Source of the DNA: Botryococcus braunii
Taxonomy: Eukaryota; Chlorophyta; Trebouxiophyceae
Assembly (NCBI GenBank): GCA_002005505.1
Contig: KV908426.1
Coordinates: 277,137 to 341,136, forward strand
Reading direction: 5' to 3'
DNA length: 64,000 nucleotides
Shown: in pieces, positions 249 to 27,388 of the stretch
Layout: each line of letters begins with the position of its first letter
How positions within the stretch are numbered: position 1 is the first letter of the stretch
Notes under the pieces: generated by a model
What the model saw: only the letters and a program-made list of their open reading frames with translations
What the model was told of the DNA's origin: nothing
The model's database searches: none
Made by a program: the position numbers and the translations under genes

Positions 249-962
249 TGTTGTAGGTAATGACATAGATCAGGTAATTACTTAGGGAGCATTACTGTTG
301 GACTTATTCAGAGGTATTCTTCTGACTCATCCTAGGCAAAACAGTCGTGCATGCCAGGCTGCCCTGGACGGCACAACACTGTTGGGCCTTAGGTGCAAAC
401 TACTGCATATTTCTTCCAGCTAGTCCTAGGAACTTGGCTGTGAAGCGACATAATTCCTTGACAGACCTCAGTCTTCCTCACGTAACTTCACATAGAGGTT
501 TGGATACCTTTGCATTGACTCACACAGCATCGTGGCACTCAGTGGAACTTGTTTTTGGGACCTCGAATACGTATTCGAGGTCAGTCAAACTAATTCTTAG
601 GCGGCCACATCAGTGTGTTTAATTTGGCACAGAAAATGGGACCTTTAGGTATTTTGTCTAGGAAACATCATCCGTATTGGATTACCAATTAGGGACCTTT
701 TGGAGTGAGAAGCTTTCAGGGACTCGACTTTTATCGAGTCCCTTGGGCGCCAAACACGGTCAGGTATTTAACTGCTGGAGGCGACAGACTCGTCATTCGT
801 TGGTTGGCCGAATCCTGTGCCACGGAATGGAAGTCCTGTCTGTTTGCTACAAGTTGAAGCTTGCTATTGCATATTTGATTTGTCTTTGAGACAGTCGCAC
901 TTGCTTATTGGTTGCCGCAAGGGAAGGCGCTCCTTTCGAACCTGTATCAGTCGCGCCAAAGG

Positions 963-1070
963 GTACGTTGTCACTTTGACAGAGGATAGAATAGCATGAT
1001 GTATTTGATAACCACTGCATTTGCAATGTTGCTCATTGCTCTGGCTAAATCGTAATGCTTGGGGCAATAG
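963..1070 (+). other. Putative intron 1 inside LTR A
   Basis: These 108 bp run from GTACGT to CAATAG and are present in repeat copy 1 but exactly missing from copy 2 of the same LTR (1,364-1,596). The joined flanks of copy 1 reproduce copy 2 base for base at the junction. The same pair occurs inverted in element D, with the intron at 19,207-19,314. A removed segment with GT-AG ends is best explained by splicing followed by reverse transcription. RNA evidence is not available here. Confidence 0.7.
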
Positions 1071-1135
1071 GTGTGTCGAGGTCTGACTGACGAAACCTCT
1101 ACAGTGCATTGACAAATCCTTTTGCGGACTTACAG

Positions 1136-1596
1136 GTATTGATGTAGTTGTGATTTAATGAGATAATTCCTATTTGGTTAGATATTTTGTTGACTGTCGC
1201 AAAACTGTGCTGTTAGGTCGTCAAGGGAACGAGTGTGCCGGACTCAGGTCCGGCACAGAACATGTCTGAGACGATGCTATGAAATCAGCTGATGAGAAAA
1301 GTAATTTATGCGTATATGAGATTGTGCCAGTAGGGCAAGCAGTAACATTGTCCCATGTAATCGATTCGTTGGTTGGCCGAATCCTGTGCCACGGAATGGA
1401 AGTCCTGTCTGTTTGCTACAAGTTGAAGCTTGCTATTGCATATTTGATTTGTCTTTGAGACAGTCGCACTTGCTTATTGGTTGCCGCAAGGGAAGGCGCT
1501 CCTTTCGAACCTGTATCAGTCGCGCCAAAGGGTGTGTCGAGGTCTGACTGACGAAACCTCTACAGTGCATTGACAAATCCTGTTGCGGACTTACAG
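1136..1596 (+). other. Putative intron 2 inside LTR A, containing repeat copy 2
   Basis: Copy 1 of the repeat ends in TTACAG at 1,135 and is followed by GTATTG, a plausible 5' splice site. Copy 2 ends in the same TTACAG at 1,596 and continues into the last 28 bp of the LTR. Joining 1,135 to 1,597 gives an RNA leader identical, apart from one base seen by eye, to copy 2 plus the LTR end. The equivalent interval in element D is 18,681-19,141. Confidence 0.65.
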
Positions 1597-1606
1597 GTGT
1601 TCTCTC

Positions 1607-1639
1607 TGCCCATAACCTTTCACAGGTTATGGGCCCACC
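1607..1639 (+). promoter_or_regulatory. Primer-binding site of element A within a hairpin
   Basis: The bases after the LTR, GGTTATGGGCCCACC (1,625-1,639), are complementary to the anticodon arm of plant-type initiator tRNA-Met and not to a tRNA 3' end. This is the half-tRNA type of priming known from Drosophila copia. The LTR end carries GCCCATAACC, the exact reverse complement of the first ten bases of the site, seven bases upstream. The LTR end and the primer site can therefore pair as a 10-bp stem with a TTTCACA loop. Confidence 0.8.
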
Positions 1640-2511: not shown

Positions 2512-3206
2512 TGTTGAGTTCTGAACATTATTATTGAATGCCTTGTGCTTTAAGTGATCTTCATGTGTGCACTATTAGGATATGGGTCCATTGAGAACAT
2601 AAGGTACCTTGAGACACGGCAGATTCTGGACGTTTTTCGAACATAAGGTACAATCCTATCTAGATCACACGTTTGTCGGATGAACTCTTAAGGCTGCCCC
2701 ACCGGAGTGAATACCAACTGGTTGTGAAAGATGCTGGGCATCACCAGATGCTAGTCTTGTCCGACAGTTGTGTGTGGCACTCAGCAGACAGTCGTACGGA
2801 CTGTAGCTGGAGTAACTTCGTCTATTGACGACCTGTCTGCTTTGTACAGGTACGGTGCGGCAGTGTGTGTTGTATCATTGTTGCTATTGTGAGAGTGAAC
2901 AAGCTTAGTGTACCCTGTAGTCACTCAAACAGATAAGGGACAGTGACTTCAGGGAGTATAGGCATGTACTTGAACGTAGCCGTCTAGAGCCTTATCTAGT
3001 GATTGCTTGATCGGTGCTTGTGTACAAGATAATGATGTAACGGAACTGGTTGTGAAAGATGCTGGGCATCACCAGATGCTAGTCTTGTCCGACAGTTGTG
3101 TGTGGCACTCAGCAGACAGTCGTACGGACTGTAGCTGGAGTAACTTCGTCTATTGACGACCTGTCTGCTTTGTACAGGGAAAGCCGATTGCCCATAACCT
3201 TTCACA
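2512..3206 (+). repeat. 5' LTR of element B (695 bp)
   Basis: The LTR starts TGTTGAG and ends TTCACA. An internal repeat of 134 bp occurs at 2,716-2,849 and 3,044-3,177. Copy 1 is followed by GTACGG; copy 2 ends TTTGTACAG and continues into the last 29 bp. The decamer CATAAGGTAC occurs at 2,598 and 2,642, and again twice in the coding linker of the same element. Confidence 0.95.
2850..3177 (+). other. Putative intron inside LTR B, containing repeat copy 2
   Basis: The interval begins GTACGG directly after repeat copy 1 and ends CTTTGTACAG, which is the 3' end of repeat copy 2 and reads as a good pyrimidine-rich acceptor. Removing these 328 bp joins copy 1 to the final 29 bp of the LTR and recreates exactly the copy 2 to LTR-end junction. 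The 3' LTR carries the same arrangement at 9,650-9,977. The LTRs of A and C show the same logic with unrelated sequence. Confidence 0.65.
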
Positions 3207-3220
3207 GGTTATGGGCCCAC
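3191..3220 (+). promoter_or_regulatory. Primer-binding site and hairpin of element B
   Basis: The site starts at 3,207 with GGTTATGGGCCCAC, complementary to the initiator tRNA-Met anticodon arm. The preceding LTR end has GCCCATAACC, giving the same 10-bp stem with a TTTCACA loop as in element A. Confidence 0.8.
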
Positions 3221-4077
3221 GCCCTTCCAGCTGAGCCAAGTAAAAGCAGGAGTGAAGGTCGTCTACGGATGGGTCAGACGTAAGCGTCAACAAAGGAGCT
3301 CGAGCATGGCGCAGCGGCGCAAGGGAACTCGAGTGTACCAGGACCATTATCTTACTCACAGTTTACCTTTTGTGATGGAATGTAGGGATTTCCCGGCATT
3401 TCTGGACATTTCCCTTACCCCCTAGCCTAGGCGCACATGTGGCGCACATGTCGTACGAGCAACGCGAGTACGCACGTGCCTAGCGTCTAGCCTTGGCTTC
3501 CTAGCCGTCGAATTCCATCGGATAGTTATGGACGTTACTCTCATAGTAGGATTCTAGGATATTTTCTAGATACTATTGTAGAGGTTTGGTGGACTAGTGC
3601 GCTACCATTGGAGGAACGTGAACACACGATCACGAACCACGGGAAGGAACGGATAGAGACGTAAGCCACGGGAAGACACGCACTCAGGTAATTTGGAAGC
3701 TTAGTAGACCACAAGTAGGGAGTGGAAGCTCCGTGAGGTGGGGGTTACTTGTAATTGGAAAGAGCGTCCAACTTGTCGGCCATCCGGCCTTGTCTCTCTC
3801 TCTCTCACAACTTGGAAATTCTCCCTAACTTGTGCATTCTACGACACCTTTCTGGGAAATTCATAATTGAAGTTTTAGCTGTGCTTTATCATTCATAGAC
3901 GTTGTCTAGAAGCACTGAGTGAGTCGGGCCGGACTCCGGCGCAAACTTCTGAGGGGAACATATCTGCTACTACTGTGCAAGACTGGCTGGTAAATTTCCA
4001 TGACATGGAGGGAATTGTAGGGTATTGCTGCATTCCAGAAGTTTATGAGTAAGTTTGGCTGGTGAAGTGACAATAGT
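3221..4077 (+). other. Untranslated leader of element B
   Basis: About 860 bp separate the primer site from the polyprotein start. No long frame or known motif is seen. It contains a short CT run near 3,787-3,806. Leader functions such as packaging signals are expected here but cannot be pointed to. Confidence 0.5.
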
Positions 4078-7000
4078 ATGACAAAAAGGGGCAAAGAAAA
4101 GGAAAGTAGCAGTGAAACAGCAATGTCTCAACCTGGAGAAGTCAGTGGGGCCACTCCAGGGCAGTCTATGACCGGGACACAATCAGCCACTGCAGAACCA
4201 AAGGTGGAGATTGACAAGGCAGCCTACATCCCCAATACCTCTAATCCAAAGATGACTGTCATGCTTGATGATGGAGGGCGCAATTTTGAATTTTGGTATG
4301 AAAATTTGGAGGCGTGCGCAAACACCAAGGGGGTCAGAGCGGCTTTGGAGAGGCCAATGCCAGGGTCGGTGGAGAACTCAGCCATCAAGCAGTGGCTGAT
4401 CCAGTCAGTTCCAGTCATCTGGCATTCTCAGATCTCATGCCACAAAGCAGCGTTCGACTTCATCGCGTGGGTGAAGAACAGTCACACTGGAGGGAGCAAC
4501 CAAGACATCAACCTTGAGTGGTACAAGGAAATGGAGCAGGGCATCAAGACAGGGGAGACACTCAAGGTCTACCTCTACAGAATGATGGATCTGGCTACAA
4601 GTCTCAGAAACAACGCGTTCATCCTCTTGGACCACAATGTTGGGGAGCTGATGGTGAAGGGCCTCCCTCCTGTGCTGAGGCTCGAGTCCCTGGAGGTTAT
4701 GGCAACCGACAAGCCGCCATTGGAGCTGATTCAAAGAATCCTGCGCGCCGCAGCCAGCCGTGGGTACAAGGACCCACCTGCAGAGGGAACACCTCAGGCC
4801 ATGGCAGCTGCAGCAGTGGCTGGTCCCTCTGGGGGGGTAGCTGGAGCGTCATCAAGCGCTGGAGCTGCACCAGGAGTGGGAGCAGTACCGGGAGTTGGAG
4901 CAGCACTACCAGCAAACGAACAGCCTCCCGCTGGCCCCTCTGCAACTACTTTTGGTGGCAGGGGGCGTGGACCTGGCAGGGCAAGAAGGCCCAGAGAGGA
5001 GCTTACATGCCACTTCTGCAAGGCAAAGGGCCACTTCATGACTGACTGCGGACCGCTCAGGCAGCTGCAGGCTCTGCATCAAAACATGCAAGCGGCAAGC
5101 GTTGGGCCTGCAGCTTACTGGGGCCAGGGAGGCCCACAGTCGTCTCCTCAAGCCTGGTGGGACCAGGGATCTGGCCGGGGTGGCCCGCCTTCATCCGCTT
5201 CCAGCCCTGGACCTCCTTCAGCATATAACTATCCAACAAGTCAACACACGTTTCCGGGGTGGCATTTACCACCTCCACCCCCTCCTTCTGGTGAGGCGAT
5301 GTTTATCTCTCTCAATGTGCTTGCCCCAACTTCGCATGGAGCTAGCAGCACATCTTGGTTAATAGATAGTGGTGCCTCTGTGCATATAGTCAATGATCTC
5401 ACATTGCTCCATAATCCAGTTATGCATAGACAGCCTCTTCCTCTGCACTTGGCAACCTCAGACGCCAAGGGAGGAATCATTGCATCTGGGTCTGTATGCC
5501 TTGTGAATGCAAGGCATGAAGTATTCTGGCTGCACAATGTGCAGTGTGTTCCTTCTGCGCATACCAACCTCATTTCAGTCACTGGTGCAATTCAGGATGG
5601 AGCATCTTTCCTGACTGACACTGCAGGTGGTTACACAGCCATGAAGGGACCTGAAGGGTGGTGTGGAGATATCACCCGCGCACGAGGTCTGTTTTTTTTG
5701 GAGTTTGTTAGTCCTGTCAGAGGGCAGCAAGTTGGCTGCAGACATATTGATCACATGGCTGAGGCGTCTCATCTTAGGAAAGGACACGTGTGTAGCGAGA
5801 GATCTCTGTGGCATGCTAGGTTAGGTCATCCTGGTGCCAGCAGCATGCAGAGGTTCTCCAAGGAAGATCTGGTTACAGGAATCAATATCTCCCTTGCTCC
5901 CTGCTCTGAGTGCCCCAAGCACTGTGAATCGTGTATACAAGGGAAACACTCCAGACCTCCTTTCCCTGTATCTTCCAGGCCTGCACATCACCCACTCGAT
6001 AGAGTCCATGTGGATACTGTGGGTCCCATATCACCTCCTGCCATCACAGGTGAACGATATTGGGTCACTGTAGTGGATGAAAGTTCACACCAAGTTGCCT
6101 CCCTGCCTGTGAAGTCAAAGGATTGCATCCCAAAGGCTGTGATAGACCTGCTCCGTTTTTGGCAGACCCAACGAGGCACGGTTGTGAAGTGTGTGAGGAC
6201 TGACAGGGGTTCAGAGTTCCTGAACCAGCAATTCAAAGAGTTTTGTGCTCAGCAGGGCACTAAGATGGAGTCCTCAGCGCCCTACACGCCTCAGCAGAAT
6301 GGGGTGGCGGAGAGGATGAATAGGACCCTGAAGGAGCGAACAAGGACTCTGTTGGTCCATGCTGCAGCAGACCCCTCCCTTTGGAAGGAGGCGCTTGAGA
6401 CAGCTACCCTCCTCTACAATGTGGGTCCTACTTCAGGCAGGTCCCTGACCCCCATGGAATTATTCTTTGGTGTCAAACCTGATGTGTCTGTGCTGCGCAC
6501 GTTTGGCTGTGTAGCCCATGTGCACATTCCCAGTGGCCAAAGGTCTGTTTTTGGGCCCAAGACCATCCCTGGGATGTTTACTGGTTATTGTCCCCAGTCT
6601 AAAGCGTATCGTGTGTACGTGGGGAATGGAGTGTGGAAGGAGAGTAGGGACGTCAGCTTTATCGAGCACTTGAGGGGGGCTGAGAGAGTGGGTCTATCAA
6701 AGGTCCAGCCTGGGTCTGTCTATGATTCTAGGATATCACCCCCCCTTGGCAGTGAGAATCTGGCAACGCCTCAAGCAATTCCCTCTGCTGCTCCACCCAC
6801 GTTCTGGGATGAGGAGGATGACCATGGAGTGGAGACGCTTTCCACTGGGGCTCCTGGGACCTCTGGACTTTGTGCTGGGGATCAGTCTGGAGACGGGACC
6901 ACAGCAGCACATGACCAAGGAAACCCCACCAGCCTGGATTCTACTGTTGGGACCCCAGAACCATCTCAGCACTCGTGGTCGGTGCTTGAGCATATGCAGA

Positions 7001-9291
7001 ATCTGGCCAGGGGGGGTGTAGAAACTCAATCCCAGGTAGAAAAAATGCAGAAGGTACAAGAGGGGTTGCGAATGCAGGGGAAGTCACAAATTCCCCTTCC
7101 TCCAGGGACCACCCTTACAAGGGAGCAGCGTTATGTACAGCGCGTGGCTAGGAGAGAGCATTCTGACATCCCATTGCATGCCCCTGACCCAGGTCAGGCA
7201 ATTGTGAGTGAGCCAAACATGGTTGGTCTCCCTGATATGCAGGGGCAGGTTGAGACAGTCGAGGCTATGTTCGGTGCAGATGTAAGAGATGAGAGCAGTG
7301 GGTTAGACATGCCAGCAGTAGGGGAAGCTGGTGCCCAATCCCAGTCACTGGCTAGTCATGCTTATGGTGTGCAGGCTGACATTGTAGGCGCAGCTCAGGC
7401 AAGTCTGGGTAGTGTGCCCAAGTGTGAGTCCAGGAGAGAGAGAGAGCTGCTGCTCCCCTCTGCATTGCGGAAGGTGCGAGAATGTAAGGGTGCTGCACAT
7501 GAGTCCAGTAGTCAAGGAGAGAGAGAGAGACTTGAGAAGGAATCAGATAATCCCGGCAGTACTGCCCAGTCCCAGCATAAGGTACATAATGTACCTTATT
7601 CTGGCAACCAGGGAGAGAGAGAGAGAGAAGGGAACAGCATCAGTAAGGCTGACAGCCCTGCTGCACCACAGCATAAGGTACAGAGTGTACCTTCTGTCAC
7701 GTTGGGAAAAGTTCACGTGCCCTCAAACTTGAGGGAAGCCCAGCGCTCACCTCAGTGGGAGTTTTGGCAGCAGGCAATGCAAGAGGAGATGGAGTCTTTA
7801 GACACCCATGAGGTTATGCAGTATGTGGAAAGACCCCATGGGCAGAAAGTTATCCCTGTTCATTGGATTTTTTCTACAAAAAACGATGCACATGGGAATG
7901 TCACTCGGTTTAAAGCAAGATTGGTTGCCCAGGGTTGCAGACAGATTCCTGGTATAGATGTTGGTGAGGTTTTTGCACCTACCAGCAGCTATGGTGCTAG
8001 GAGAGCTGTGCTGGCAGTGGCTGCCACACAAAATCTTGAGATCCACCAAGTGGATATCAAGACAGCTTTTCTCAATGGGGAGTTGGAGGAAGAGGTCTAT
8101 GTGACCCAACCACCAGGATTTGAGAATGGCAACACGAGAGTTGTGTGCAAGCTCAGGAAGGCACTCTACGGTCTTAAGCAAGCCCCACGGGCTTGGCACA
8201 AGACCTTGAGCGACAAGTTGAGCGTGATGGGGTATAGTGTGTGCAAGAGCGACGCTGGGGTATACATCAGGAGGGCCCCTGATGGTAATCTGTCGTTTAT
8301 TCTTGTTTATGCCGATGATCTTCTCATAGTTGCCAGAGTGGTTGCAGAGATTGAGTGGGGGAAAGAGTTATTGAAGAAGGACTTCACCATCCATGATTTG
8401 GGAGAGGTGAATGATTTCCTGGGGTGTCAGGTCCTACGCAATAGAGTTCAGGGCACTATTTCCATGAGTTGCACTCCCAAGATTGATGCTCTTGTGGAGA
8501 AGTTTGGCGTTGCTGATGATGGACGTGGGGTTGATACCCCCATGTCCAAGGACTTCGTGGCTAGCAGCAGACCCGAGTCCTCAGATGGTATGTCACATGG
8601 GGCTGGTACCCCTCTGCCACCTGGTCATCGATACTGCGAGTTAATTGGATCGTTACTGTACATAGCCAATACGACCCGGCCTGACATTTCTCAGGCTGTT
8701 GGAGTGTTGTCAAGGTATAGAATGACACCCACTACCTCACACTGGAATGAGGCCATTCGAGTGCTGAAGTACTTGAGAGATACCAGAGAGTTAGCTCTTA
8801 CTCTGGGTGGAAAGGGCCCTGAGCTAGAAGGCTATGTTGATGCCGACTATGCTGGGGACCTGGACCACAGGTATTCCACCACTGGCTATGTTCTATCAGT
8901 CTATGGTAGTGCCGTGGTTTGGGGAAGCAAGAAGCAGAGCTCAGTTGCTACCTCAACTGTGCAAGCTGAGTTTATGGCAGCTGGCCATATTGTGAAGGAA
9001 GCCAACTGGCTAAGGGGCTTCTTGGAAGAGATAGGGGCTGCACCTTGGAGGGTCAAAATTTTCTGTGACAACCAAGGATGCATTTCTAATTTACGGAACC
9101 CCCTGTATTCCAAATTCACAAAGCACGTTGCAGTAAGCTTCCACTACGCTAGGGAAGCTATGGCACTTGGGCAGGTAGATATCCTCTATGTGGAATCTGC
9201 ACGCAATGTGGCTGACATTATGACCAAGCCACTTGCCAAGCCCGTGTTTGTTGGTCATCGTGATTCACTAGGTTTGAGAAGATACACTTAA
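4078..9291 (+). CDS. Copia Gag-Pol polyprotein of element B (intact)
   Basis: This single frame of 1,737 codons encodes all functions for copia retrotransposition. In order it holds a Gag capsid-like region (about 1-230), a disordered Ala/Gly/Pro stretch, a CCHC zinc knuckle (C311, C314, H319, C324), an aspartic protease with DSGAS at D430, a GAG-pre-integrase HHCC zinc region with LWHARLGHP, and an integrase core with D646, D709 and E745 (35 residues between the last two). A long polar linker (about 880-1,210) precedes the reverse transcriptase (YADD at 1,411-1,414) and RNase H (DADYAGD from D1588). All catalytic motifs are present and there are no breaks. Gag and Pol are in one frame, so Gag excess must come from processing or RNA control. 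It is flanked by its own leader and purine tract. Confidence 0.97.
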   Translation: MTKRGKEKESSSETAMSQPGEVSGATPGQSMTGTQSATAEPKVEIDKAAYIPNTSNPKMTVMLDDGGRNFEFWYENLEACANTKGVRAALERPMPGSVENSAIKQWLIQSVPVIWHSQISCHKAAFDFIAWVKNSHTGGSNQDINLEWYKEMEQGIKTGETLKVYLYRMMDLATSLRNNAFILLDHNVGELMVKGLPPVLRLESLEVMATDKPPLELIQRILRAAASRGYKDPPAEGTPQAMAAAAVAGPSGGVAGASSSAGAAPGVGAVPGVGAALPANEQPPAGPSATTFGGRGRGPGRARRPREELTCHFCKAKGHFMTDCGPLRQLQALHQNMQAASVGPAAYWGQGGPQSSPQAWWDQGSGRGGPPSSASSPGPPSAYNYPTSQHTFPGWHLPPPPPPSGEAMFISLNVLAPTSHGASSTSWLIDSGASVHIVNDLTLLHNPVMHRQPLPLHLATSDAKGGIIASGSVCLVNARHEVFWLHNVQCVPSAHTNLISVTGAIQDGASFLTDTAGGYTAMKGPEGWCGDITRARGLFFLEFVSPVRGQQVGCRHIDHMAEASHLRKGHVCSERSLWHARLGHPGASSMQRFSKEDLVTGINISLAPCSECPKHCESCIQGKHSRPPFPVSSRPAHHPLDRVHVDTVGPISPPAITGERYWVTVVDESSHQVASLPVKSKDCIPKAVIDLLRFWQTQRGTVVKCVRTDRGSEFLNQQFKEFCAQQGTKMESSAPYTPQQNGVAERMNRTLKERTRTLLVHAAADPSLWKEALETATLLYNVGPTSGRSLTPMELFFGVKPDVSVLRTFGCVAHVHIPSGQRSVFGPKTIPGMFTGYCPQSKAYRVYVGNGVWKESRDVSFIEHLRGAERVGLSKVQPGSVYDSRISPPLGSENLATPQAIPSAAPPTFWDEEDDHGVETLSTGAPGTSGLCAGDQSGDGTTAAHDQGNPTSLDSTVGTPEPSQHSWSVLEHMQNLARGGVETQSQVEKMQKVQEGLRMQGKSQIPLPPGTTLTREQRYVQRVARREHSDIPLHAPDPGQAIVSEPNMVGLPDMQGQVETVEAMFGADVRDESSGLDMPAVGEAGAQSQSLASHAYGVQADIVGAAQASLGSVPKCESRRERELLLPSALRKVRECKGAAHESSSQGERERLEKESDNPGSTAQSQHKVHNVPYSGNQGEREREGNSISKADSPAAPQHKVQSVPSVTLGKVHVPSNLREAQRSPQWEFWQQAMQEEMESLDTHEVMQYVERPHGQKVIPVHWIFSTKNDAHGNVTRFKARLVAQGCRQIPGIDVGEVFAPTSSYGARRAVLAVAATQNLEIHQVDIKTAFLNGELEEEVYVTQPPGFENGNTRVVCKLRKALYGLKQAPRAWHKTLSDKLSVMGYSVCKSDAGVYIRRAPDGNLSFILVYADDLLIVARVVAEIEWGKELLKKDFTIHDLGEVNDFLGCQVLRNRVQGTISMSCTPKIDALVEKFGVADDGRGVDTPMSKDFVASSRPESSDGMSHGAGTPLPPGHRYCELIGSLLYIANTTRPDISQAVGVLSRYRMTPTTSHWNEAIRVLKYLRDTRELALTLGGKGPELEGYVDADYAGDLDHRYSTTGYVLSVYGSAVVWGSKKQSSVATSTVQAEFMAAGHIVKEANWLRGFLEEIGAAPWRVKIFCDNQGCISNLRNPLYSKFTKHVAVSFHYAREAMALGQVDILYVESARNVADIMTKPLAKPVFVGHRDSLGLRRYT

Positions 9292-9311
9292 AGCATGCAG
9301 GCAAGGGGAAG

Positions 9312-10005
9312 TGTTGAGTTCTGAACATTATTATTGAATGCCTTGTGCTTTAAGTGATCTTCATGTGTGCACTATTAGGATATGGGTCCATTGAGAACAT
9401 AAGGTACCTTGAGACACGGCAGATTCTGGACGTTTTTCGAACATAAGGTACAATCCTATCTAGATCACACGTTTGTCGGATGAACTCTTAAGGCTGCCCC
9501 ACCGGAGTGAATACCAACTGGTTGTGAAAGATGCTGGGCATCACCAGATGCTAGTCTTGTCCGACAGTTGTGTGTGGCACTCAGCAGACAGTCGTACGGA
9601 CTGTAGCTGGAGTAACTTCGTCTATTGACGACCTGTCTGCTTTGTACAGGTACGGTGCGGCAGTGTGTGTTGTATCATTGTTGCTATTGTGAGAGTGAAC
9701 AAGCTTAGTGTACCCTGTAGTCACTCAAACAGATAAGGGACAGTGACTTCAGGGAGTATAGGCATGTACTTGAACGTAGCCGTCTAGAGCCTTATCTAGT
9801 GATTGCTTGATCGGTGCTTGTGTACAAGATAATGATGTAACGGAACTGGTTGTGAAAGATGCTGGGCATCACCAGATGCTAGTCTTGTCCGACAGTTGTG
9901 TGTGGCACTCAGCAGACAGTCGTACGGACTGTAGCTGGAGTAACTTCGTCTATTGACGACCTGTCTGCTTTGTACAGGGAAAGCCGATTGCCCATAACCT
10001 TCACA
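9312..10005 (+). repeat. 3' LTR of element B (694 bp)
   Basis: The sequence matches 2,512-3,206 except for one missing T in the CCTTTCACA end. It is preceded by the purine tract and followed by the target duplication AGTCC. It holds the same internal repeat pair and putative intron (9,650-9,977). Confidence 0.95.
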
Positions 10006-10222: not shown

Positions 10223-11587
10223 TGTGAAAGGTTATGGGCAGAGAGAACACCTGTAAGTCCGCAAAAGGATTTGTCAATGCACTGTAGAGGTTTCGTCAGT
10301 CAGACCTCGACACACCCTTTGGCGCGACTGATACAAGTTCGAAGGAGCGCCTTCCCTTGCGGCAACCAATAAGCAAGTGCGACTGTCTCAAAGACAAATC
10401 AAATATGCAATAGCAAGCTTCAACTTGTAGCAAACAGACAGGACTTCCATTCCGTGGCACAGGATTCGGCCAACCAACGAATCATTACATGGGACAATGT
10501 TACTGCTTGCCCTACTGGCACAATCTCATATACGCATAAATTACTTTTCTCATCAGCTGTTTATAGCATCGTCTCAACATGTTCTGTGCCGGACCTGAGT
10601 CCGGCACACTCGTTCCCTTGACGACCTAACAGCACAGTTTGCGACAGTCAACAAATATCTAACCAAATAGGAATTATCTCATTAAATCACAACTACATCA
10701 ATACCTGTAAGTCCGCAAAAGGATTTGTCAATGCACTGTAGAGGTTTCGTCAGTCAGACCTCGACACACCTATTGCCCCAAGCATTACGATTTAGCCAGA
10801 GCAATGAGCAACATTGCAAATGCAGTGGTTATCAAATACATCATGCTATTCTATCTCTGTCAAAGTGCAACGTACCCTTTGGCGCGACTGATACAGGTTC
10901 GAAAGGAGCGCCTTCCCTTGCGGCAACCAAAAGCAAGTGCGACTGTCTCAAAGACAAATCAAATATGCAATAGCAAGCTTCAACTTGTAGCAAACAGACA
11001 GGACTTCCATTCCGTGGCACAGGATTCGGCCAACCAACGAATGACGAGTCTGTCGCCTCCAGTAGTTAAATACCTGACCGTGTTTGGCGCCCAAGGGACT
11101 CGATAAAAGTCGAGTCCCTGAAAGCTTCTCACTCCAAAAGGTCCCTAATTGGTAATCCAATACGGATGATGTTTCCTAGACAAAATACCTAAAGGTCCCA
11201 TTTTCTGTACCTGATTAAACACACTGATGTGGCCGCCTAAGAATTAGTTTGACTGACTTTGAATACGTATTCGAGGTCCCAAAAACAAATTCCACTGAGT
11301 GCCACGATGCTGTGTGAGTCAATGCAAAGTTGTCCTAACCTCTTCGTGAAGTTACGTGAGGAAGACTGAAGTCTGTCAAGGAATTATGTCGCTTCACAGC
11401 CAAGTTCCTAGGACTAGCTGGGAGAATATGCAGTAGTTTACACCTAAGGCCCAACAGTGTTGTGCCGTCCAGGGCAGCCTGGCATGCACGACTGTTTTGC
11501 CTAGGATGAGTCAGAAGAATACCTCTGAATAAGTCCAACAGTAATGCTCCCTAAGTAATTACCTGATCTAGGTCATGACCTACAACA
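10223..11587 (-). repeat. 3' LTR of element D (1,365 bp)
   Basis: This is an inverted LTR of the A/D family with the same internal repeat pair. It is preceded, on the - strand, by the purine tract at 11,588-11,598 (CTTCCCCTTGG on the + strand). Small deletions against the 5' LTR are visible, for example near 10,640 and 10,930. Confidence 0.9.
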
Positions 11588-18652: not shown

Positions 18653-20028
18653 TGTGAAAGGTTATGGGCAGAGAGAACACCTGTAAGTCCGCAACAGGAT
18701 TTGTCAATGCACTGTAGAGGTTTCGTCAGTCAGACCTCGACACACCCTTTGGCGCGACTGATACAGGTTCGAAAGGAGCGCCTTCCCTTGCGGCAACCAA
18801 TAAGCAAGTGCGACTGTCTCAAAGACAAATCAAATATGCAATAGCAAGCTTCAACTTGTAGCAAACAGACAGGACTTCCATTCCGTGGCACAGGATTCGG
18901 CCAACCAACGAATCGATTACATGGGACAATGTTACTGCTTGCCCTACTGGCACAATCTCATATACGCATAAATTGCTTTTCTCATCAGCTGATTTCATAG
19001 CATCGTCTCAGACATGTTCTGTGCCGGACCTGAGTCCGGCACACTCGTTCCCTTGACGACCTAACAGCACAGTTTTGCGACAGTCAACAAAATATCTAAC
19101 CAAATAGGAATTATCTCATTAAATCACAACTACATCAATACCTGTAAGTCCGCAAAAGGATTTGTCAATGCACTGTAGAGGTTTCGTCAGTCAGACCTCG
19201 ACACACCTATTGCCCCAAGCATTACGATTTAGCCAGAGCAATGAGCAACATTGCAAATGCAGTGGTTATCAAATACATCATGCTATTCTATCCTCTGTCA
19301 AAGTGACAACGTACCCTTTGGCGCGACTGATACAGGTTCGAAAGGAGCGCCTTCCCTTGCGGCAACCAATAAGCAAGTGCGACTGTCTCAAAGACAAATC
19401 AAATATGCAATAGCAAGCTTCAACTTGTAGCAAACGGACAGGACTTCCATTCCGTGGCACAGGATTCGGCCAACCAACGAATGACTAGTCTGTCGCCTCC
19501 AGCACTTAAATACCTGACCGTGTTTGGCGCCCAAGGGACTCGATAAAAGTCGAGTCCCTGAAAGCTTCTCACTCCAAAAGGTCCCTAATTGGTAATCCAA
19601 TACGGATGATGTTTCCTAGACAAAATACCTAAAGGTCCCATTTTCTGTACCTGATTAAACACACTGATGTGGCCGCCTAAGAATTAGTTTGACTGACCTC
19701 GAATACGTATTCGAGGTCCCAAAAACAAATTCCACTGAGTGCCACGATGCTGTGTGAGTCAATGCAAAGTTGTCCTAACCTCTTCGTGAAGTTACGTGAG
19801 GAAGACTGAAGTCTGTCAAGGAATTATGTCGCTTCACAGCCAAGTTCCTAGGACTAGCTGGGAGACATATGCAGTAGTTTACACCTAAGGCACAACAGTG
19901 TCGTGCCGTCCAGGGCAGCCTGGCATGCACGACTGTTTTGCCTAGGATGAGTCAGAAGAATACCTCTGAATAAGTCCAACAGTAATGCTCCCTAAGTAAT
20001 TACCTGATCTAGGTCATTACCTACAACA
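18653..20028 (-). repeat. 5' LTR of element D (1,376 bp)
   Basis: It has the same length as the LTR of A and lies in the opposite direction. The primer-binding site is at 18,638-18,652 and matches the initiator tRNA-Met anticodon arm. Repeat copy 1 is 19,315-19,482 plus 19,142-19,206 with the putative 108-bp intron at 19,207-19,314; copy 2 is 18,681-18,913. The right edge joins gypsy element E. Confidence 0.92.
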
Positions 20029-20248
20029 AATAGACATTCGATTGTTGTCTCCGGTGCCTCAGGTCGGACCTCTGTATTTCCGTTTGGCACCGTCCTTTGC
20101 CTGCATTAACTCAGCTGTCGCTTGCTATGCAGGAATCCTGACACTGTTTTTGATCAAATTGACATCAAATAATCGAATAGATGGACAAGAGGGCAACGAA
20201 GCTTGTAACAAAGGGCATAGCGATTATGATCATGATGTTAAACAGTTC
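20029..20248 (+). pseudogene. Gypsy element E polyprotein, fragment upstream of reverse transcriptase
   Basis: A frame of about 70 codons ends at the insertion point of element C. Deleting C and one copy of its target duplication keeps this frame continuous with the reverse transcriptase frame at 27,394. It therefore belongs to the linker between protease and reverse transcriptase of element E. No protease motif is visible because the sequence further upstream is lost at the D boundary. Confidence 0.7.
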
Positions 20249-20939
20249 TGAAATATTCTGGGCTTGGCGTATCCTGCATGGTGGCGGCACGGAGGGTGTT
20301 AGACGATGTCCTCCTACTTGTGCGTTGTTAAGTAGGCACGGACATATACAAGTCAAGGACTGGTTAGCAACTGATTGATAGACACCCGGAGTGCCACTAT
20401 AGTTCCAACCAAGTCTTACAATATCTCTCATCTCTCCTAACAAGGTGACGCAGTTCAAACACGCCTAACCTGCTCTCACCCAGGTCGTGTTCATTACTTT
20501 GTCCGATGAGCTAAACTCAACTCTATATGTCTAACATGTTCTAACAATGTTCATCTGAGTGCTAAATCCAGGAATACAATAAGGATTAAGTCACCTGCAT
20601 GGTGGCGGCACGGAGGGTGTTAGACGATGTCCTCCTACTTGTGCGTTGTTAAGTAGGCACGGACATATACAAGTCAAGGACTGGTTAGCAACTGATTGAT
20701 AGACACCCGGAGTGCCACTATAGTTCCAACCAAGTGCCTTCCCTATCCGTGCTTGCCCCATATGCCTCCTTTCTACAAACGTGTCTGTAACTTGCGTTAT
20801 GATAGTCTTCGTTCAAATGCATGTATTGCCTGGCAGAACTCAGGGTTCTGCCTCTCTTTCCTAATTGGTATTGTCTTCATACGGAGACTTGCCATTATTA
20901 CTCCTCTGAGGGAAAGGCATAAAATTAATTAACACAACA
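20249..20939 (-). repeat. 3' LTR of element C (691 bp)
   Basis: It starts, on the - strand, TGTTGTGTTAATTAATT and ends ATATTTCA. It is a copy of 26,698-27,388 with the same 141-bp internal repeat pair. Confidence 0.95.
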
Positions 20940-20957
20940 CTTCCCCTTGCCTTTACC

Positions 20958-23900
20958 TCACAGAAACTTGGCCAGTCCCAGTGAGTTACGATGTCCCAGA
21001 AACACTTGTCTAACTAGTGGTTTGGTAAAAATGTCAGCCACATTTCTAGCAGATTGAATGTACTTGAATTCAACCTGCCCCTTTGCAATAGCTTCACGTG
21101 CGAAATGACAGCTAATTGCAATATGCTTTGTGTGTTTGGAGTACACCGGATTCCTCAGGTGGTTTATACACCCTTGGTTGTCACAATGAATCTTCACTAT
21201 CCACGGTAACACTCCAATTTCCTCCAGGAAACCTCTCAGCCAATTTGCTTCCTTCACAACAGCACTTGCTGCCATGAATTCAGCCTCCACTGTTGAAGTG
21301 GCAACAGCAGATTGCTTTTTACTTCCCCACACTACTGCTCCTCCAAACACAGTGAGGACAAAGCCAGTGGTAGAGAAGCGATGATCCTGATCACCTCCAT
21401 AGTCGGCATCCACATAGCCTTCTAGCTCTATCTCCCCCCCTCCGAGAGTTAGAACCAAATCTCGGGTTCCTTTCAGATACTTCAACACACGGATGGCTTC
21501 ATTCCAATGTGCTGTGGTGGGAGATATGCGATAACGAGACAATACACCTACTGCCTGAGCTATATCGGGACGTGTGGTGTTGGCTATATACAGAAGAGAC
21601 CCTACTAACTCACAGTAACGGTGACCTGGAGGTAGTGGACTGCCAGCACCAATGCTGTCGCTCCCATCTCTCGGTGCAGGCCTTTGGGACATTACGAAAT
21701 CTTTTGTCATGGGAGTATCAGGTCCCACTGACTCAAGATCCAAGCCAAATTTCTCTACAAGTGCATCGATTTTAGGGATGCAACTCAGGGTGATCAGCCC
21801 TTTATCTCTATCTCTCATCACTTGACATCCCAAGAAATCCTTCACTTCCCCAAGATCATGGATGGTGAATTCTTTCTTGAGAAGTCCCTTCACTCTCTCG
21901 ATTTCTGACATGCCCTTGGAAACTATCAGAAGATCATCAACATAGATCAGCACATAGGACTTTCCTCCATCAGTAGAGCATCTCACATACACTCCCGCAT
22001 CACTCTTGCACACCTCATACCCCATGACTTCAAGTTTGTCATTCAGGGTTTTGTGCCAGGCACGTGGAGCCTGCTTCAGGCCATACAACGCCTTTCTCAA
22101 TCGGCACACAATATTCTTATCACCATTCTCAAAGCCAGGAGGTTGCGTTACATATACTTCCTCCTCGAGCTCACCATTCAGAAAGGCGGTCTTAACGTCC
22201 ACCTGATGAATTTCACAGCCCTCTCTTGCAGCAACAGCAAGCAGAGCTCTTCTAGCTCCATAGCTACTAGTAGGAGCAAAGACCTCCATCACATCCACTC
22301 CAGGGATTTGTCTGCATCCCTGTGCCACTAATCTGGCCTTGAATCTCACAACATTGCCATGTGCATCCATTTTCACTGAAAATATCCAGTGAACTGGAAT
22401 AACCTTATGTCCACGAGGTCTCGGAACATACTCCATGACCTCATGAGTATCTAGAGAATTTTGCTCTTCCTGCATAGCTGCCTTCCAGTATTCCCACTGG
22501 GGAGACATCTGTGCTTCTCTCAAATTAGAGGGAACGTGAATTTTCCCAAATCTGACACCTGTGTGCTTTTCCTCTGAATTGCCTGATTTTCTCTCACTTT
22601 GTCCAGAACCCACTACTCTTCCACTGACACTCGCTGAGTTACACATCACAGGCTCTCCAGTAGAAGTAGAATGCTCTCTCATAGCACGCTCTCGCTTGGA
22701 CTCACACTTGGCTTTGCACAAGTTACTCTGCTCATCCCTCACATCATCCTCCCATGCACAGGTACCTCTCGGACAGTCTTTGTAATTTGGAATCCCTTCA
22801 CATTGTCCAGACTTCCGATTCACCTCCTCAGACACACTCTGACATGCCTGCAAGAGTTCAGACTCTTCAGGTCTCTCACAAGCAACATCGGGATATGGCA
22901 GAGTGTCTGCATACTTCCCCTGATTTATGTGATCCACATGCCTCTCAGACCGACTGCATGTCACTGTTGGGAGTGACCTCACATCTCTGACATCACTCTC
23001 CCAGGCACAGGTACCTCTCAGTGAGCACTTGTAATTTGGTCTGTCTCCACAATGTCTGTGCTCCTGATTCACCTCCTCCTCTCGTCCCTTACATGGAGTC
23101 AAGGATGCAGATCCTGTCTCCCGCTCACAATCATGTTTGGCTGGTGCAGAGAAAGCATATGATGCTTCCTCTGACCGGTGGCTGCCACCACAGTCCCGTC
23201 CAGGAGTGCTCTGACTGGACGGGTTGCCAGAAGAACTCTGCATGGTCACATCTCTTACATTTCTCTCAGTCACTGAACAAGACCCACCCATACTGCTCAG
23301 CTCCCCGGGACCATTTGCAGCTTTGCATGTAGCTGCCCCCCTCACTGCACTCACATGCAATTCATGCCCCTCATGTGAATCACCCTCTAGCTGCACTTCC
23401 CCTGGTCCCTGTGACAGAGAGTCACATTCAGTCAACCCCTCTCGCTCTCTGCTCTCTCCCTTCTCCTGTGGCAGCAGGAGGTCTTTGGCGGCAGTGCGTT
23501 GTTCGTGTCGTTGAGCCCGGGTCAGGCCATCCAATTGGTGGTTGCGGCAATCAGACCTAGTTGGTCTGAGGACCTCCTGGGCTCGCTCCATCTGCGGTCG
23601 AAGGTGGGAGTCCTGTCTCACTCCTCTGGCTAAGTCCTGTACTGCCTCCAGGGTTTGATCCATCTCCACTGGGTCACACAGTCTTCTGGATTCAGGCTCG
23701 GGCTCAGCCTCACTGGGGGGTCCTGTGACAGGCTGTGTGGGGAGGTTGCTGGAGGCTGGCAGGTACTCAGGCTCACTGTGTGGGTCATCAAGATCTGTCT
23801 CAAGGCTGATGTTGGTTGTGCCAGGGGAGGTGCCGGGAAAGACTGGGGGAGTGTCACTTGCAGAGGGCTCAGGACACAGAAACTCTGTAGACTGTGTTGA

Positions 23901-26360
23901 GGAAACGCTCATGCCAACCCGAGAGGCTCCCCTGAGGTGCTCCACGAAAACCACATCTCTGCTCTCCTTCCAGATACCCCCTCCCACATAGATCCGATAG
24001 GCTTTGGAGGAGGCTGAGTAACCAGTAAGCATCCCTGGCACAGTTTTAGGGGAAAACACAGAGCGCTGGACATCAGGAATGTGCACAAAGGCCAAGCAAC
24101 CCCAGGTACGCAGTGGGGTTACATTTGGTTTGTAGCCAAAAAATAATTCTGATGGCGTGCGGTCCCTCCCGGTACTGGGACCCATGTTCAGTAGGGTGCA
24201 TGCAGTTTCCAGGGCCTCCTTCCACAACGTTGGACTGGCAGCTGCAAAAGCCAGAAGAGTCCTGGTACGTTCCTTGAGGGTGCGATTGGCTCTTTCAGCC
24301 GCTCCATTCTGTTGCGGGGTGTAAGGAGCTGAGGTCTCCAATTTAGTCCCCTGGGATGCACAAAATTCTTTGAACGTGGCATTCAGAAATTCAGTTCCAC
24401 GGTCACACCGGACACACTTCACTTTGGTTTTCTTCTGGGTCTGCCAGTATAGAATGAGGTCCCTCACAGCAGCACTGATGGCATCTTTGGACTTCACAGG
24501 CAGGACCGCCTTTAACTGAGATGACTCATCCAAAGCAGTCACCCAGTAACGTTCACCAGTTACTGCAGCAGGAAAAATGGGGCCCACAGTGTCAATATGT
24601 ACTCTGTCAAGTGGTTCAACAGCTGGTCTACTGCTTATTCCAAATGGAGGCCGAGACGTCTTTCCCTCAATACATGCTTCACAGTAGACTGGACAATTGG
24701 AGCAGGGACATAGGGATGTATCAAGTCCCGAGACCAGGTCCTCATTGGTTAGGCGCTGCATCCATGTTTCACCTGGATGTCCCATTCTGCTATGCCAGAG
24801 GTATCGTCTGGCACAGTTGTGTGAGTTTTGGGTGGGGGTTTTGGACTTCACAGCAGCTGAAATTCTTCTGTGGTTAACACTGGGACTCAGAGCTACAACT
24901 TGATGAATATAAAATAGCCCTTTCTCTGCACTGATCCGAGACCTCCAGCTGTTTGGACCACAGACTTCAGTGAACGCTCCAACATCATCTGTGCGAAAGA
25001 CTGCCCCATCCCGCAATGCTGCAGATACTGACAGTATGTTTGAGGTTGCAGAAGGAACACACTGAACATGATGTATCCACAGGGGAACTCCCACTCGACT
25101 GAGGATGCAGACAGAGCCTGATGCTACAATTCCTCCAGTGGCATCTGAAGTGGCCAGATGTAATGGGATGGGTTTGGCATGCACAGTTGGATTATGTAGT
25201 AGGGTCACATCATTCACCAGATGTACAGATGCTCCACTGTCCACCAGCCAGGATTGCAGAGACGAATTTCTGACAGGAGTCTTCAGGATGTTGAGGGAAA
25301 TTATGTATGGCATACCTCCAGGTGGTGGAGGTGGGGGAGCTGGGGGTTGGAACCATGCCGGAAAGGCATCCAGTCCAGGGTGCGCCAGCTGGGCTGCAGG
25401 AGGGTGTGGGCCACCCATATGTGGAGGTCCCTGTGGCCACATTCCCTGCAATTGTTGGACCGCTGCCACTACGTTCCGTTGGGTCTCCTCGTCCCGCTTC
25501 CTCTTTCGACAGTCCCTCCAGTAATGCCCCTTCTTATTGCAGTAGTTGCAGATGCCCTTAGTCTCGGACTTGGCCTCAGAGACAGTTGGTTGGGCCTGCT
25601 GATGGACTGCACTGGCAGCTGGTGGGGTATTGGCTCCACTGGAGCCTTGTCCAAGAGCCAAAACCCTTGGTTGGCGAGGAGCATATTCATCAAAACCCAC
25701 TGCAGCTGCTGTGTTGCGCAGAAGTCCAGCCAGCTTCTCCAGGGGTTGTGCTGCAGCAGTTGTGATCATTCCTGGCTCTTTAGCTGCATCAGGCAAGCCC
25801 TGCACAATCTGGGTTGCAACGTGTGCATCCAGTAGAGCATGGTTGTTCCTGTCAAGGCATGCCTTCAGGTTGATCATTCTGTTGACATATTGCGAAATCG
25901 TCTCGTCATGTTTCATTCCCTGGCTCATTTCTTGGAGCCAATCTGCATTGGCCTCGATATTATATCCACCAATAAACTTTCTGCAGATGAACTCATATGC
26001 ATCATAAGCAGAGGGCAGATTAGACAGAGGTCCCAGCCATTCCTCTGGGACTGACTCATAAATCAGTAACATTGCGGCTGCGTCATGTGCTGTACCAGGC
26101 ATAGCCTCCAGGATGGCAGGCAAAGACCCTTTTGACTCATTTGCTGCCAAAAATGCATTCTTCCAAACAATAATATTTGTCCCCCGTTCCTTCAGTTTTA
26201 TGTGTACCTTGACATTTGTTGGGATAATCTTGGGCAGCTCATCTCCGCTGCCTCTTGAGGTGCTGGGAGTACACGGTTCTCTGATGGGTGTGGATGAGGC
26301 TGGTTCACTGCTTGACGTTGATGCTCCACTAGCTGATGATCCTTTCTTCTTGGAAGTCAT
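20958..26360 (-). CDS. Copia Gag-Pol polyprotein of element C (intact)
   Basis: A single frame of 1,800 codons starts at the ATG at 26,360. It holds a Gag capsid-like region, a CCHC knuckle (C271, C274, H279, C284), an aspartic protease with DSGAS at D374, the GAG-pre-integrase zinc region (LWHSRMGHP), an integrase core beginning with D590, a very long polar linker, reverse transcriptase with YVDD at 1,473-1,476, and RNase H with DADYGGD. The linker contains an internal repeat built on GTCAWE-DDVRDE/GTCAWE-SDVRDV units and the short motif AKCESKRE. No frameshift or stop is seen. Its ATG overlaps the stop of an upstream ORF in the arrangement ATGA. Confidence 0.97.
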   Translation of the reverse strand: MTSKKKGSSASGASTSSSEPASSTPIREPCTPSTSRGSGDELPKIIPTNVKVHIKLKERGTNIIVWKNAFLAANESKGSLPAILEAMPGTAHDAAAMLLIYESVPEEWLGPLSNLPSAYDAYEFICRKFIGGYNIEANADWLQEMSQGMKHDETISQYVNRMINLKACLDRNNHALLDAHVATQIVQGLPDAAKEPGMITTAAAQPLEKLAGLLRNTAAAVGFDEYAPRQPRVLALGQGSSGANTPPAASAVHQQAQPTVSEAKSETKGICNYCNKKGHYWRDCRKRKRDEETQRNVVAAVQQLQGMWPQGPPHMGGPHPPAAQLAHPGLDAFPAWFQPPAPPPPPPGGMPYIISLNILKTPVRNSSLQSWLVDSGASVHLVNDVTLLHNPTVHAKPIPLHLATSDATGGIVASGSVCILSRVGVPLWIHHVQCVPSATSNILSVSAALRDGAVFRTDDVGAFTEVCGPNSWRSRISAEKGLFYIHQVVALSPSVNHRRISAAVKSKTPTQNSHNCARRYLWHSRMGHPGETWMQRLTNEDLVSGLDTSLCPCSNCPVYCEACIEGKTSRPPFGISSRPAVEPLDRVHIDTVGPIFPAAVTGERYWVTALDESSQLKAVLPVKSKDAISAAVRDLILYWQTQKKTKVKCVRCDRGTEFLNATFKEFCASQGTKLETSAPYTPQQNGAAERANRTLKERTRTLLAFAAASPTLWKEALETACTLLNMGPSTGRDRTPSELFFGYKPNVTPLRTWGCLAFVHIPDVQRSVFSPKTVPGMLTGYSASSKAYRIYVGGGIWKESRDVVFVEHLRGASRVGMSVSSTQSTEFLCPEPSASDTPPVFPGTSPGTTNISLETDLDDPHSEPEYLPASSNLPTQPVTGPPSEAEPEPESRRLCDPVEMDQTLEAVQDLARGVRQDSHLRPQMERAQEVLRPTRSDCRNHQLDGLTRAQRHEQRTAAKDLLLPQEKGESREREGLTECDSLSQGPGEVQLEGDSHEGHELHVSAVRGAATCKAANGPGELSSMGGSCSVTERNVRDVTMQSSSGNPSSQSTPGRDCGGSHRSEEASYAFSAPAKHDCERETGSASLTPCKGREEEVNQEHRHCGDRPNYKCSLRGTCAWESDVRDVRSLPTVTCSRSERHVDHINQGKYADTLPYPDVACERPEESELLQACQSVSEEVNRKSGQCEGIPNYKDCPRGTCAWEDDVRDEQSNLCKAKCESKRERAMREHSTSTGEPVMCNSASVSGRVVGSGQSERKSGNSEEKHTGVRFGKIHVPSNLREAQMSPQWEYWKAAMQEEQNSLDTHEVMEYVPRPRGHKVIPVHWIFSVKMDAHGNVVRFKARLVAQGCRQIPGVDVMEVFAPTSSYGARRALLAVAAREGCEIHQVDVKTAFLNGELEEEVYVTQPPGFENGDKNIVCRLRKALYGLKQAPRAWHKTLNDKLEVMGYEVCKSDAGVYVRCSTDGGKSYVLIYVDDLLIVSKGMSEIERVKGLLKKEFTIHDLGEVKDFLGCQVMRDRDKGLITLSCIPKIDALVEKFGLDLESVGPDTPMTKDFVMSQRPAPRDGSDSIGAGSPLPPGHRYCELVGSLLYIANTTRPDIAQAVGVLSRYRISPTTAHWNEAIRVLKYLKGTRDLVLTLGGGEIELEGYVDADYGGDQDHRFSTTGFVLTVFGGAVVWGSKKQSAVATSTVEAEFMAASAVVKEANWLRGFLEEIGVLPWIVKIHCDNQGCINHLRNPVYSKHTKHIAISCHFAREAIAKGQVEFKYIQSARNVADIFTKPLVRQVFLGHRNSLGLAKFL

Positions 26361-26629
26361 AATTCCCCAGTTGTCTTATAACTCCAGTACTCGCAAGGTA
26401 GCAGCAAGATCTTACTTCTGAACCAGGTGGGTTGAGCTAACGGACAGCCAACGTGAAGGTGAAAGATGTAGTCTTTGACGATAAAGGCTCTCTCGTCAGG
26501 ATTGCGGTCTCCACGTTGTCCTCCTTCTCTGATTAGTTCGTTGTATGACGGAGGTCCTGATCTCAAGCGCGCTGGAACGTTGAGGTTGGTGGTCTTCCTG
26601 GCTGTTTGCTTTGTCCGCTTCTTCGCCAT
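26357..26629 (-). CDS. Leader ORF of element C with a histone H3 tail-like N terminus
   Basis: A 90-codon frame lies between the primer site and gag. It starts MAKKRTKQTARKTT, and RTKQTARK is identical to residues 2-9 of histone H3, spanning both Lys4 and Lys9. The rest (a charged middle, then an aromatic C-terminal part) shows no further likeness to H3 or any family I know. Its stop codon overlaps the Gag start as ATGA, an arrangement that would suit termination-reinitiation. Whether it is translated is unknown. Chance likeness of a basic peptide is possible, but eight consecutive matches are unlikely. Confidence 0.5.
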   Translation of the reverse strand: MAKKRTKQTARKTTNLNVPARLRSGPPSYNELIREGGQRGDRNPDERAFIVKDYIFHLHVGCPLAQPTWFRSKILLLPCEYWSYKTTGEL

Positions 26630-26681
26630 TCACAGTCTAGTGAGCTCCGATTTAGGCGCCACCCACTCTCAGCATCCGAGC

Positions 26682-26697
26682 CCGTGGGCCCATAACC
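26682..26697 (-). promoter_or_regulatory. Primer-binding site of element C
   Basis: On the - strand the site reads GGTTATGGGCCCACGG directly after the LTR end ATATTTCA. It matches the initiator tRNA-Met anticodon arm as in A, B and D. The LTR end of this family lacks the complementary GCCCATAACC, so no hairpin forms. Confidence 0.8.
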
Positions 26698-27388
26698 TGA
26701 AATATTCTGGGCTTGGCGTATCCTGCATGGTGGCGGCACGGAGGGTGTTAGACGATGTCCTCCTACTTGTGCGTTGTTAAGTAGGCACGGACATATACAA
26801 GTCAAGGACTGGTTAGCAACTGATTGATAGACACCCGGAGTGCCACTATAGTTCCAACCAAGTCTTACAATATCTCTCATCTCTCCTAACAAGGTGACGC
26901 AGTTCAAACACGCCTAACCTGCTCTCACCCAGGTCGTGTTCATTACTTTGTCCGATGAGCTAAACTCAACTCTATATGTCTAACATGTTCTAACAATGTT
27001 CATCTGAGTGCTAAATCCAGGAATACAATAAGGATTAAGTCACCTGCATGGTGGCGGCACGGAGGGTGTTAGACGATGTCCTCCTACTTGTGCGTTGTTA
27101 AGTAGGCACGGACATATACAAGTCAAGGACTGGTTAGCAACTGATTGATAGACACCCGGAGTGCCACTATAGTTCCAACCAAGTGCCTTCCCTATCCGTG
27201 CTTGCCCCATATGCCTCCTTTCTACAAACGTGTCTGTAACTTGCGTTATGATAGTCTTCGTTCAAATGCATGTATTGCCTGGCAGAACTCAGGGTTCTGC
27301 CTCTCTTTCCTAATTGGTATTGTCTTCATACGGAGACTTGCCATTATTACTCCTCTGAGGGAAAGGCATAAAATTAATTAACACAACA
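26698..27388 (-). repeat. 5' LTR of element C (691 bp)
   Basis: The LTR holds a 141-bp direct repeat: copy 1 at 27,044-27,184 and copy 2 at 26,723-26,863 (both read on the - strand). Copy 1 ends CCATGCAG and is followed by GTGACT. Copy 2 ends with the same CCATGCAG and continues into the last 25 bp of the LTR. Confidence 0.95.
26723..27043 (-). other. Putative intron inside LTR C, containing repeat copy 2
   Basis: The 321-bp interval begins GTGACT and ends ATGCAG on the - strand. Removing it joins repeat copy 1 to the LTR end and reproduces the junction found at copy 2. The position of donor and acceptor relative to the repeat is the same as in LTRs A, B and D, although the sequences are unrelated. 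Confidence 0.65.

Follow-up and report, generated by a model that had tools for sequence, protein, structure and literature searches.

Copia LTRs of Botryococcus braunii that hold an intron-split leader and a second, intronless copy of it

Introns in transcribed regions should vanish through spliced RNA, and the nested copia elements that open a 64-kb stretch of the 176-Mb genome of Botryococcus braunii (the whole stretch analysed, hereafter the window) raise the question of how an LTR might keep such introns. A first-pass annotation had described direct repeats with GT and AG borders inside these LTRs and had proposed that a spliced leader takes part in replication. We thus analysed the repeats, their edges and their distribution in the genome, and the LTR design that emerged would offer a concrete way around the expected loss.

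Leader copies in the copia LTRs

Element A is split by element B, inserted at 2512-10005, and is followed on the minus strand by D, a second A-family element (10223-20029), and by C (20249-27388) (Table 1). The elements are Ty1/copia by their genes, gene order, LTR ends and target duplications. The integrase domain rve precedes RVT_2 in a single polyprotein in the B and C frames, RVT_2 is also present in the A family, and direct LTRs with TG...CA ends and 5-bp target-site duplications (TSDs) were found for B, C, the loci L034 and L038 and all seven short-LTR elements described below, with no TSD at D or L009. In tblastn searches, the regions downstream of the leaders of groups F, G and H were matched, and that of group E was not. 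Penelope-like elements have a different reverse transcriptase; the algal elements carry RVT_2 and rve. In half-tRNA-primed copia elements, such as Drosophila copia and Volvox Osser, the primer site lies directly after the LTR and faces the anticodon region of initiator tRNA, and we know of no intron or doubled leader in LTRs of that type. The putative primer site adjoining the algal 5' LTRs, GGTTATGGGCCCACNNNC, occurs at 1,340 sites and presumably fits initiator tRNA.

Table 1. Positions of the copia features in the window
Feature	Position	Strand
A 5' LTR (TG...CA)	249..1624	+
A TATA-like box TATTTAA, 30 nt 5' of copy 1	765..771	+	
A copy 1 exon 1; putative transcription start 795 (C, then A)	795..962	+	
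A internal intron GTACG...AATAG, not in copy 2	963..1070	+	
A copy 1 exon 2	1071..1135	+	
A last intron; contains TGTAA and the whole of copy 2	1136..1596	+	
A TGTAA, poly(A)-signal-like motif before copy 2	1356..1360	+	
A copy 2 (spliced leader copy), ends ACAG	1364..1596	+	
A LTR tail, the last leader exon	1597..1624	+	
A putative primer-binding site, GGTTATGGGCCCAC	1625..1638	+
B 5' LTR, nested in A, TSD AGTCC	2512..3206	+	
B copy 1, single exon, followed by GTACGG	2716..2849	+	
B intron; contains TGTAA (3036-3040) and copy 2	2850..3177	+	
B copy 2	3044..3177	+	
B putative primer-binding site	3207..3220	+	
B gag-pol frame; integrase before RVT_2, copia order	4078..9291	+	
B 3' LTR, plan as in 5' LTR	9312..10005	+	
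D (A family) 3' LTR	10223..11587	-	
D (A family) 5' LTR; two-exon plan as in A	18653..20029	-	
C 3' LTR, TSD GAACT	20249..20939	-	
C gag-pol frame, copia order	20958..26360	-	
C putative primer-binding site	26684..26697	-	
C 5' LTR	26698..27388	-	
C copy 2	26723..26863	-	
C intron; contains TGTAA (26869-26865) and copy 2	26723..27043	-	
C copy 1, followed by GTGACT	27044..27184	-	

The LTR holds a leader split by introns (copy 1) and, downstream, the same leader without introns (copy 2). We realigned the LTRs with a local aligner that takes long copy 1 gaps at a flat cost and has no knowledge of splice sites, and all repeat coordinates that had been assigned to the A, B, C and D LTRs held. The two copies differ at 0 of 135 positions in B, at 0 of 142 in C, and at 2 of 235 and 1 of 233 in D, and in A the aligner returned copy 2 as copy 1 minus a 108-bp GT..AG intron. 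Depending on the group, copy 1 has one, two or three exons; the three-exon form, found in L010, L050, L021, L037 and L025, contains two introns of about 85-92 bp that are missing from copy 2. As a rule, GT stands right after copy 1, and AG ends copy 2, 8-29 nt before the primer site. In A, GT also follows copy 2, so that a GT after copy 1 alone does not distinguish the copies, and several last-intron donors (GTACGG, GTGCGG) look weak. Since the internal introns are missing from copy 2 and the junctions are GT..AG, copy 2 therefore relates to copy 1 as a cDNA to a split gene.

Other groups were located through the matches to the shared primer site, which yielded a sample of 70 LTR rows from 68 loci (winA is L001 and winD is L002, each counted twice), comprising the 8 best A matches, the first 30 primer sites listed, 20 chosen sites, all 8 variant primer sites and the 4 window LTRs. 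Both copies were present in 62 of the 70 rows, and the intronless single-copy form in five (L034, L038, L056, L087 and L091); as for the remaining rows, L053 is truncated, L039 is decayed as judged by eye, and no LTR was seen at L086. GT..AG was found at 79 of 85 junctions (internal, 21 of 23; last, 58 of 62), where 2-3.5% is expected by chance, although the families are related and the counts thus not fully independent. The GT after copy 1 and the AG ending copy 2, claimed by the first-pass annotation, recur in the other copia LTRs sampled, with six failing junctions in five rows (L009, L021, L044, L084 and L085). In controls, the top aligner score among 60 shuffled rows was 13, and when 100 random 1500-mers were drawn from the window, 3 scored at or above the cut-off of 60, but not one of these had GT..AG at every junction. 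Two of these three cover a 165-bp perfect direct repeat in the interior of D (15967-16131 and 17253-17417), which lacks GT/AG. Five viral contigs carrying the primer motif had no such LTR plan.

We considered whether the copies could be plain duplications, with coincidental GT and AG borders and no splicing. The GT that follows both copies in A and the weak-looking donors would suit such an origin, but the junction count rejects chance borders, and the absence from copy 2 of internal introns of about 85-108 bp rejects simple duplication, so that this origin is hardly credible. The plan itself is common to the groups, as had been proposed for three families, but the repeats in fact fall into eight groups or more, some with three exons; clustering at 85% gave 15 clusters, of which L048 is a misaligned B copy. 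The repeats had also been called unrelated between families; most between-group pairs were indeed not alignable, but five aligned at 0.55-0.63 identity and B/B' at 0.77, and thus not every pair is proved unrelated.

Renewal of copy 2 and signals at the copy edges

We then compared the copies within and between elements. Copy 1 and copy 2 of one element are mostly 0.98-1.00 identical, with the lowest values in L044 (0.917) and L025 (0.930), whereas identities between elements are 0.76-0.95 in group E and 0.57-0.64 for the H subfamilies. In trees, copy 1 was nearest to its own copy 2 in all eight E and all four H elements (12/12 together), in 5 of 8 cases in B/B', where the test is uninformative because the sequences are nearly identical, and in 1 of 2 in G. 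These trees show, as far as sequence relationships can, that copy 2 is remade and not merely inherited. Among A, B and C the reverse transcriptases share 62-76% identity, and with that of H they share 51-54%, which argues that the plan outlived a deep divergence and, by this measure, is old.

A spliced leader might instead have been pasted once into an ancestral LTR, the copies having since been kept alike by ordinary gene conversion. The copies lie close together and are mostly identical, many of the sampled elements are young, several LTR pairs being without any mismatch, and copy 1 and copy 2 of L044 do not pair in the tree, all of which would be compatible with such a history. However, one plan is found in groups whose exon number varies from one to three and whose repeats differ greatly, copy 2 starts at other U3 positions in L042 and L110/L111, intronless elements exist in several variants also known in full form, and conversion should also spread or erase introns. 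We thus regard this history as very improbable, and prefer the repeated remaking of copy 2, to which ordinary gene conversion could add some homogenisation.

Dating of the LTR pairs gave little: for the first 15 of 20 mates, 3 were not found, 1 was only 39 bases long, 7 were cut to about 368 bases and 4 were whole; for the last 5, 3 were found, 1 was missed and 1 read N. The pair L009/L064 was dropped as a dating pair, since it has no TSD and its site patterns are like those of two separate elements. Its LTRs differ by 6%, with copy 1 equal to copy 2 in each LTR at five differing sites, and it is likely a chimera of two elements.

The edges of the two copies carry different signals. AT content reaches its maximum of 0.74 at -30 to -25 of copy 1, with none at copy 2, and a TATA-like box lies near this position in A, B', E and G, with a less distinct one in C; none stands there in F, and it is weak or lacking in B and H. 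Copy 1 begins at a step from a pyrimidine to A in 12 of 14 subfamilies, the exceptions being L025 and L085 (G, then A); C is represented in this count by the window copy winC, and its variant L013 has G followed by C. The base preceding copy 2 is a purine in all 14. TGTAA, in turn, lies at -10 to +2 of copy 2 in 13 of the 14 subfamily representatives. It is fully inside the 40 nt upstream of copy 2 in 53 of 62 rows and crosses the edge in six H rows, where its last A is the first base of copy 2; it is absent from this edge in L042, L057 and the misaligned L048. In contrast, TGTAA was found within 40 nt upstream of copy 1 in 0 of the 62 rows, and elsewhere in U3 and the intron at 4 of 7,459 positions.

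UGUAA is the chlorophyte poly(A) signal and peaks about 17 nt before the cleavage site (PMC1868727). With this spacing, TGTAA would set the end of the RNA some 10 nt into copy 2, short of the acceptor, and the terminal R used for transfer would probably be only about 10 nt long. In L110 and L111 (8 nt) and in L042 (5 nt), copy 2 is extended to the left by U3 bases, which start behind a T or a C and take the place of part of TGTAA and of what lies beyond it. Such an extended copy 2 is what would be expected as the trace of a strong-stop cDNA made from a slightly longer RNA. Genomic DNA thus retains single-base footprints of the presumed transcription start and strand transfer. Judged by these signs alone, the LTR seems to depart from the standard U3-R-U5 layout, in which one R serves as both start and end of the RNA: the start signs lie at copy 1 and the end signs at copy 2. 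The promoter would hence be separated from the terminator, whereas the usual LTR has both around one R.

Intronless LTRs

The genome also contains LTRs of the form U3-leader-tail, without the introns. L034, which stood among the first 30 loci, has two such LTRs of 370 bp and the TSD AAGTC, and another seven elements (C, five; B', two) have 370-bp intronless LTRs on both sides, with 0-5 mismatches and 5-bp TSDs. These seven were picked because both sites stood in the lists of short-LTR hits, so that their both-short state is not an independent result. Short-LTR sites make up 22 of 444 in C and 67 of 562 in B', where two of the 67 are left-extended full LTRs. In A, 25 sites lack intron 1 and 128 have it; among the 25, every one of the 23 that were read is fully spliced as far as the tail. 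Of the 128, 93 were classed (60 read, 31 matched whole, and 2 read in the window and L095) and 35 were not; among the 60 read, 59 continue into the last intron and 1, the only short LTR of the 93, into the tail. Depending on the family, intronless products thus account for about 5-16% of sites, a natural tally of such products, and they exist in several sequence variants that also exist in full form. Loss of intron 1 alone through splicing in the 3' LTR was rejected, having been seen at 0 of the 23 read sites.

Recombination between the direct repeats could also yield short intronless LTRs, which would then be uninformative on replication. In one-exon families the product would be identical, the seven both-short pairs were selected as pairs, and in L038/L063, an element with the TSD GGATG, the 5' LTR is intronless whereas the 3' LTR is full, the two being alike in all other respects, which reflects either a single-LTR deletion or a plus-strand slip. 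Some short LTRs thus come from deletion, recombination or slippage. However, L034 was not so selected and yet has both LTRs short and a TSD, and independent shortening at the C frequency predicts about one both-short element at most, against at least five that exist. Furthermore, if crossovers in A fell according to exon length (168:65), about 10 short LTRs retaining intron 1 would be predicted per 128 for 25 fully spliced ones, against one observed among the 93 classed. The both-short elements and the A counts rule out recombination as the sole source, and as a general account it is unlikely.

TGTAA was not found in any of the seven short 5' LTRs read, which suggests that such LTRs would fail to form a proper RNA end and that the intron owes its retention to the end signal inside it. 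An intronless element without TGTAA is thus probably a dead end.

A proposed replication cycle and known systems

Taken together, the observations very probably reflect a cycle in which transcription starts at copy 1, the leader is spliced, strong-stop cDNA is transferred into copy 2, and copy 2 is rewritten in each round. Transcription would begin in the 5' LTR, where copy 1 starts. The internal introns would be removed from the leader, and the end of copy 1 would be spliced across copy 2 onto the final 8-29 nt of the LTR, which border the primer site; this joint is seen as a cDNA-like relation in DNA, not as RNA. Reverse transcriptase would then copy the spliced leader into strong-stop cDNA. 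In the 3' LTR, the genomic RNA would stop about 10 nt into copy 2, past TGTAA but short of the acceptor AG, so that the last intron could not be spliced there and would survive. The strong-stop cDNA would pair with this RNA end, as the footprints at the copy edges suggest, and be extended through the unspliced intron and copy 1. The new LTR would accordingly combine an intron-bearing copy 1 inherited through the parental 3' LTR with a newly made, spliced copy 2 that derives from the parental 5' LTR; pairing of the strong-stop with copy 1 instead would give the intronless elements without TGTAA that are found in the genome.

We infer transcription, splicing, polyadenylation and transfer themselves from these traces. 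The cycle outlined by the first-pass annotation fared well, as sequence signs were found for each of its four predictions, namely that the two copies evolve in concert, that copy 2 lacks all copy 1 introns, that the left edge bears a start signature and that a poly(A) site lies in copy 2 upstream of the acceptor. The same annotation had regarded premature polyadenylation as solved by the intron, which holds only in part. The intron does hold the signal, but since the 5' transcript has it only through the intron, splicing must outrun polyadenylation there. As both LTRs contain the same sequences, splicing would have to prevail in the 5' LTR and fail in the 3' LTR, and the packaged RNA would also have to keep the internal introns of A and H. 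It is probable, with less assurance than for the cycle as a whole, that splicing is an obligatory step of replication, with copy 2 rewritten every cycle, one to three spliceosomal introns carried indefinitely and the intronless offspring sterile. If this is true, a lineage of LTR retrotransposons stores an intron-bearing leader to start its RNA and a spliced leader to end it. The LTR design makes intron retention, the choice between 5' and 3' poly(A) sites and the first strand transfer testable in an alga with more than 1,000 such primer sites.

Parts of this design have counterparts elsewhere. In HIV-2/SIV, an intron lies within the R-U5 leader and its splicing is optional, and we know of no spliced leader copy stored in the LTR. 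In spumaviruses the acceptor lies downstream of the LTR and, to our knowledge, foamy viruses keep no intron inside the LTR, whereas the algal acceptor is inside the LTR, at the end of copy 2. The algal LTRs resemble those of foamy (spuma) viruses, without being members, in having a donor within the LTR upstream of a poly(A)-signal-like motif. In the foamy virus LTR, the major splice donor lies upstream of the poly(A) signal, and U1 snRNP bound to it suppresses 5' polyadenylation, independently of splicing according to a section heading; the portions of that paper used here name no second, spliced leader copy (PMC3694450). By analogy, the donor after copy 1 may act in a similar manner against 5' polyadenylation. 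The barley copia element BARE has two TATA boxes in its LTR and produces separate transcripts for translation and replication, with the R domain in one pool only; its intron lies in the gag-protease part, its replicating RNA is unspliced, and the consulted portion of the source describes no second leader copy (PMC3735527). Penelope-like elements retain introns through retrotransposition, for which self-priming on an antisense template has been proposed (PMC3846280). In searches of open-licence full texts, no published description of a spliced leader copy inside an LTR was found.

The LTR tails of A, B, B' and G contain CCCATAACC or a close variant, a sequence reverse-complementary to the first bases of the primer site (window 1608-1638 and 3190-3220), whereas it was not seen in the tails of C, E, F and H. 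In the former groups the tail and primer site could thus fold as a hairpin, and the tail presumably has some likeness to the initiator tRNA anticodon loop. The Lhc genes of the genome fit a green alga: one Lhc exon has its best matches in chains of 9kqp and 6zzx, and a second in the repeat-built chains of 9vfj, where the score adds up over several domains; no rbcL was found. For the C reverse transcriptase, the best match among named relatives comes from Micractinium, with 42% identity, and a 95% identical relative of the C polyprotein, P0025, is present in the JGI and ENA sequence sets, indicating that close relatives have already been sampled elsewhere. Adjoining C, 27448-29620 on the plus strand encodes a set of domains like that of Ty3-type elements, with RVT_1, RNase H and an integrase zinc-binding domain. 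Finally, the region 35000-57100, which is free of these elements, contains many short-period repeat tracts on both strands, with self-matches offset by two bases.
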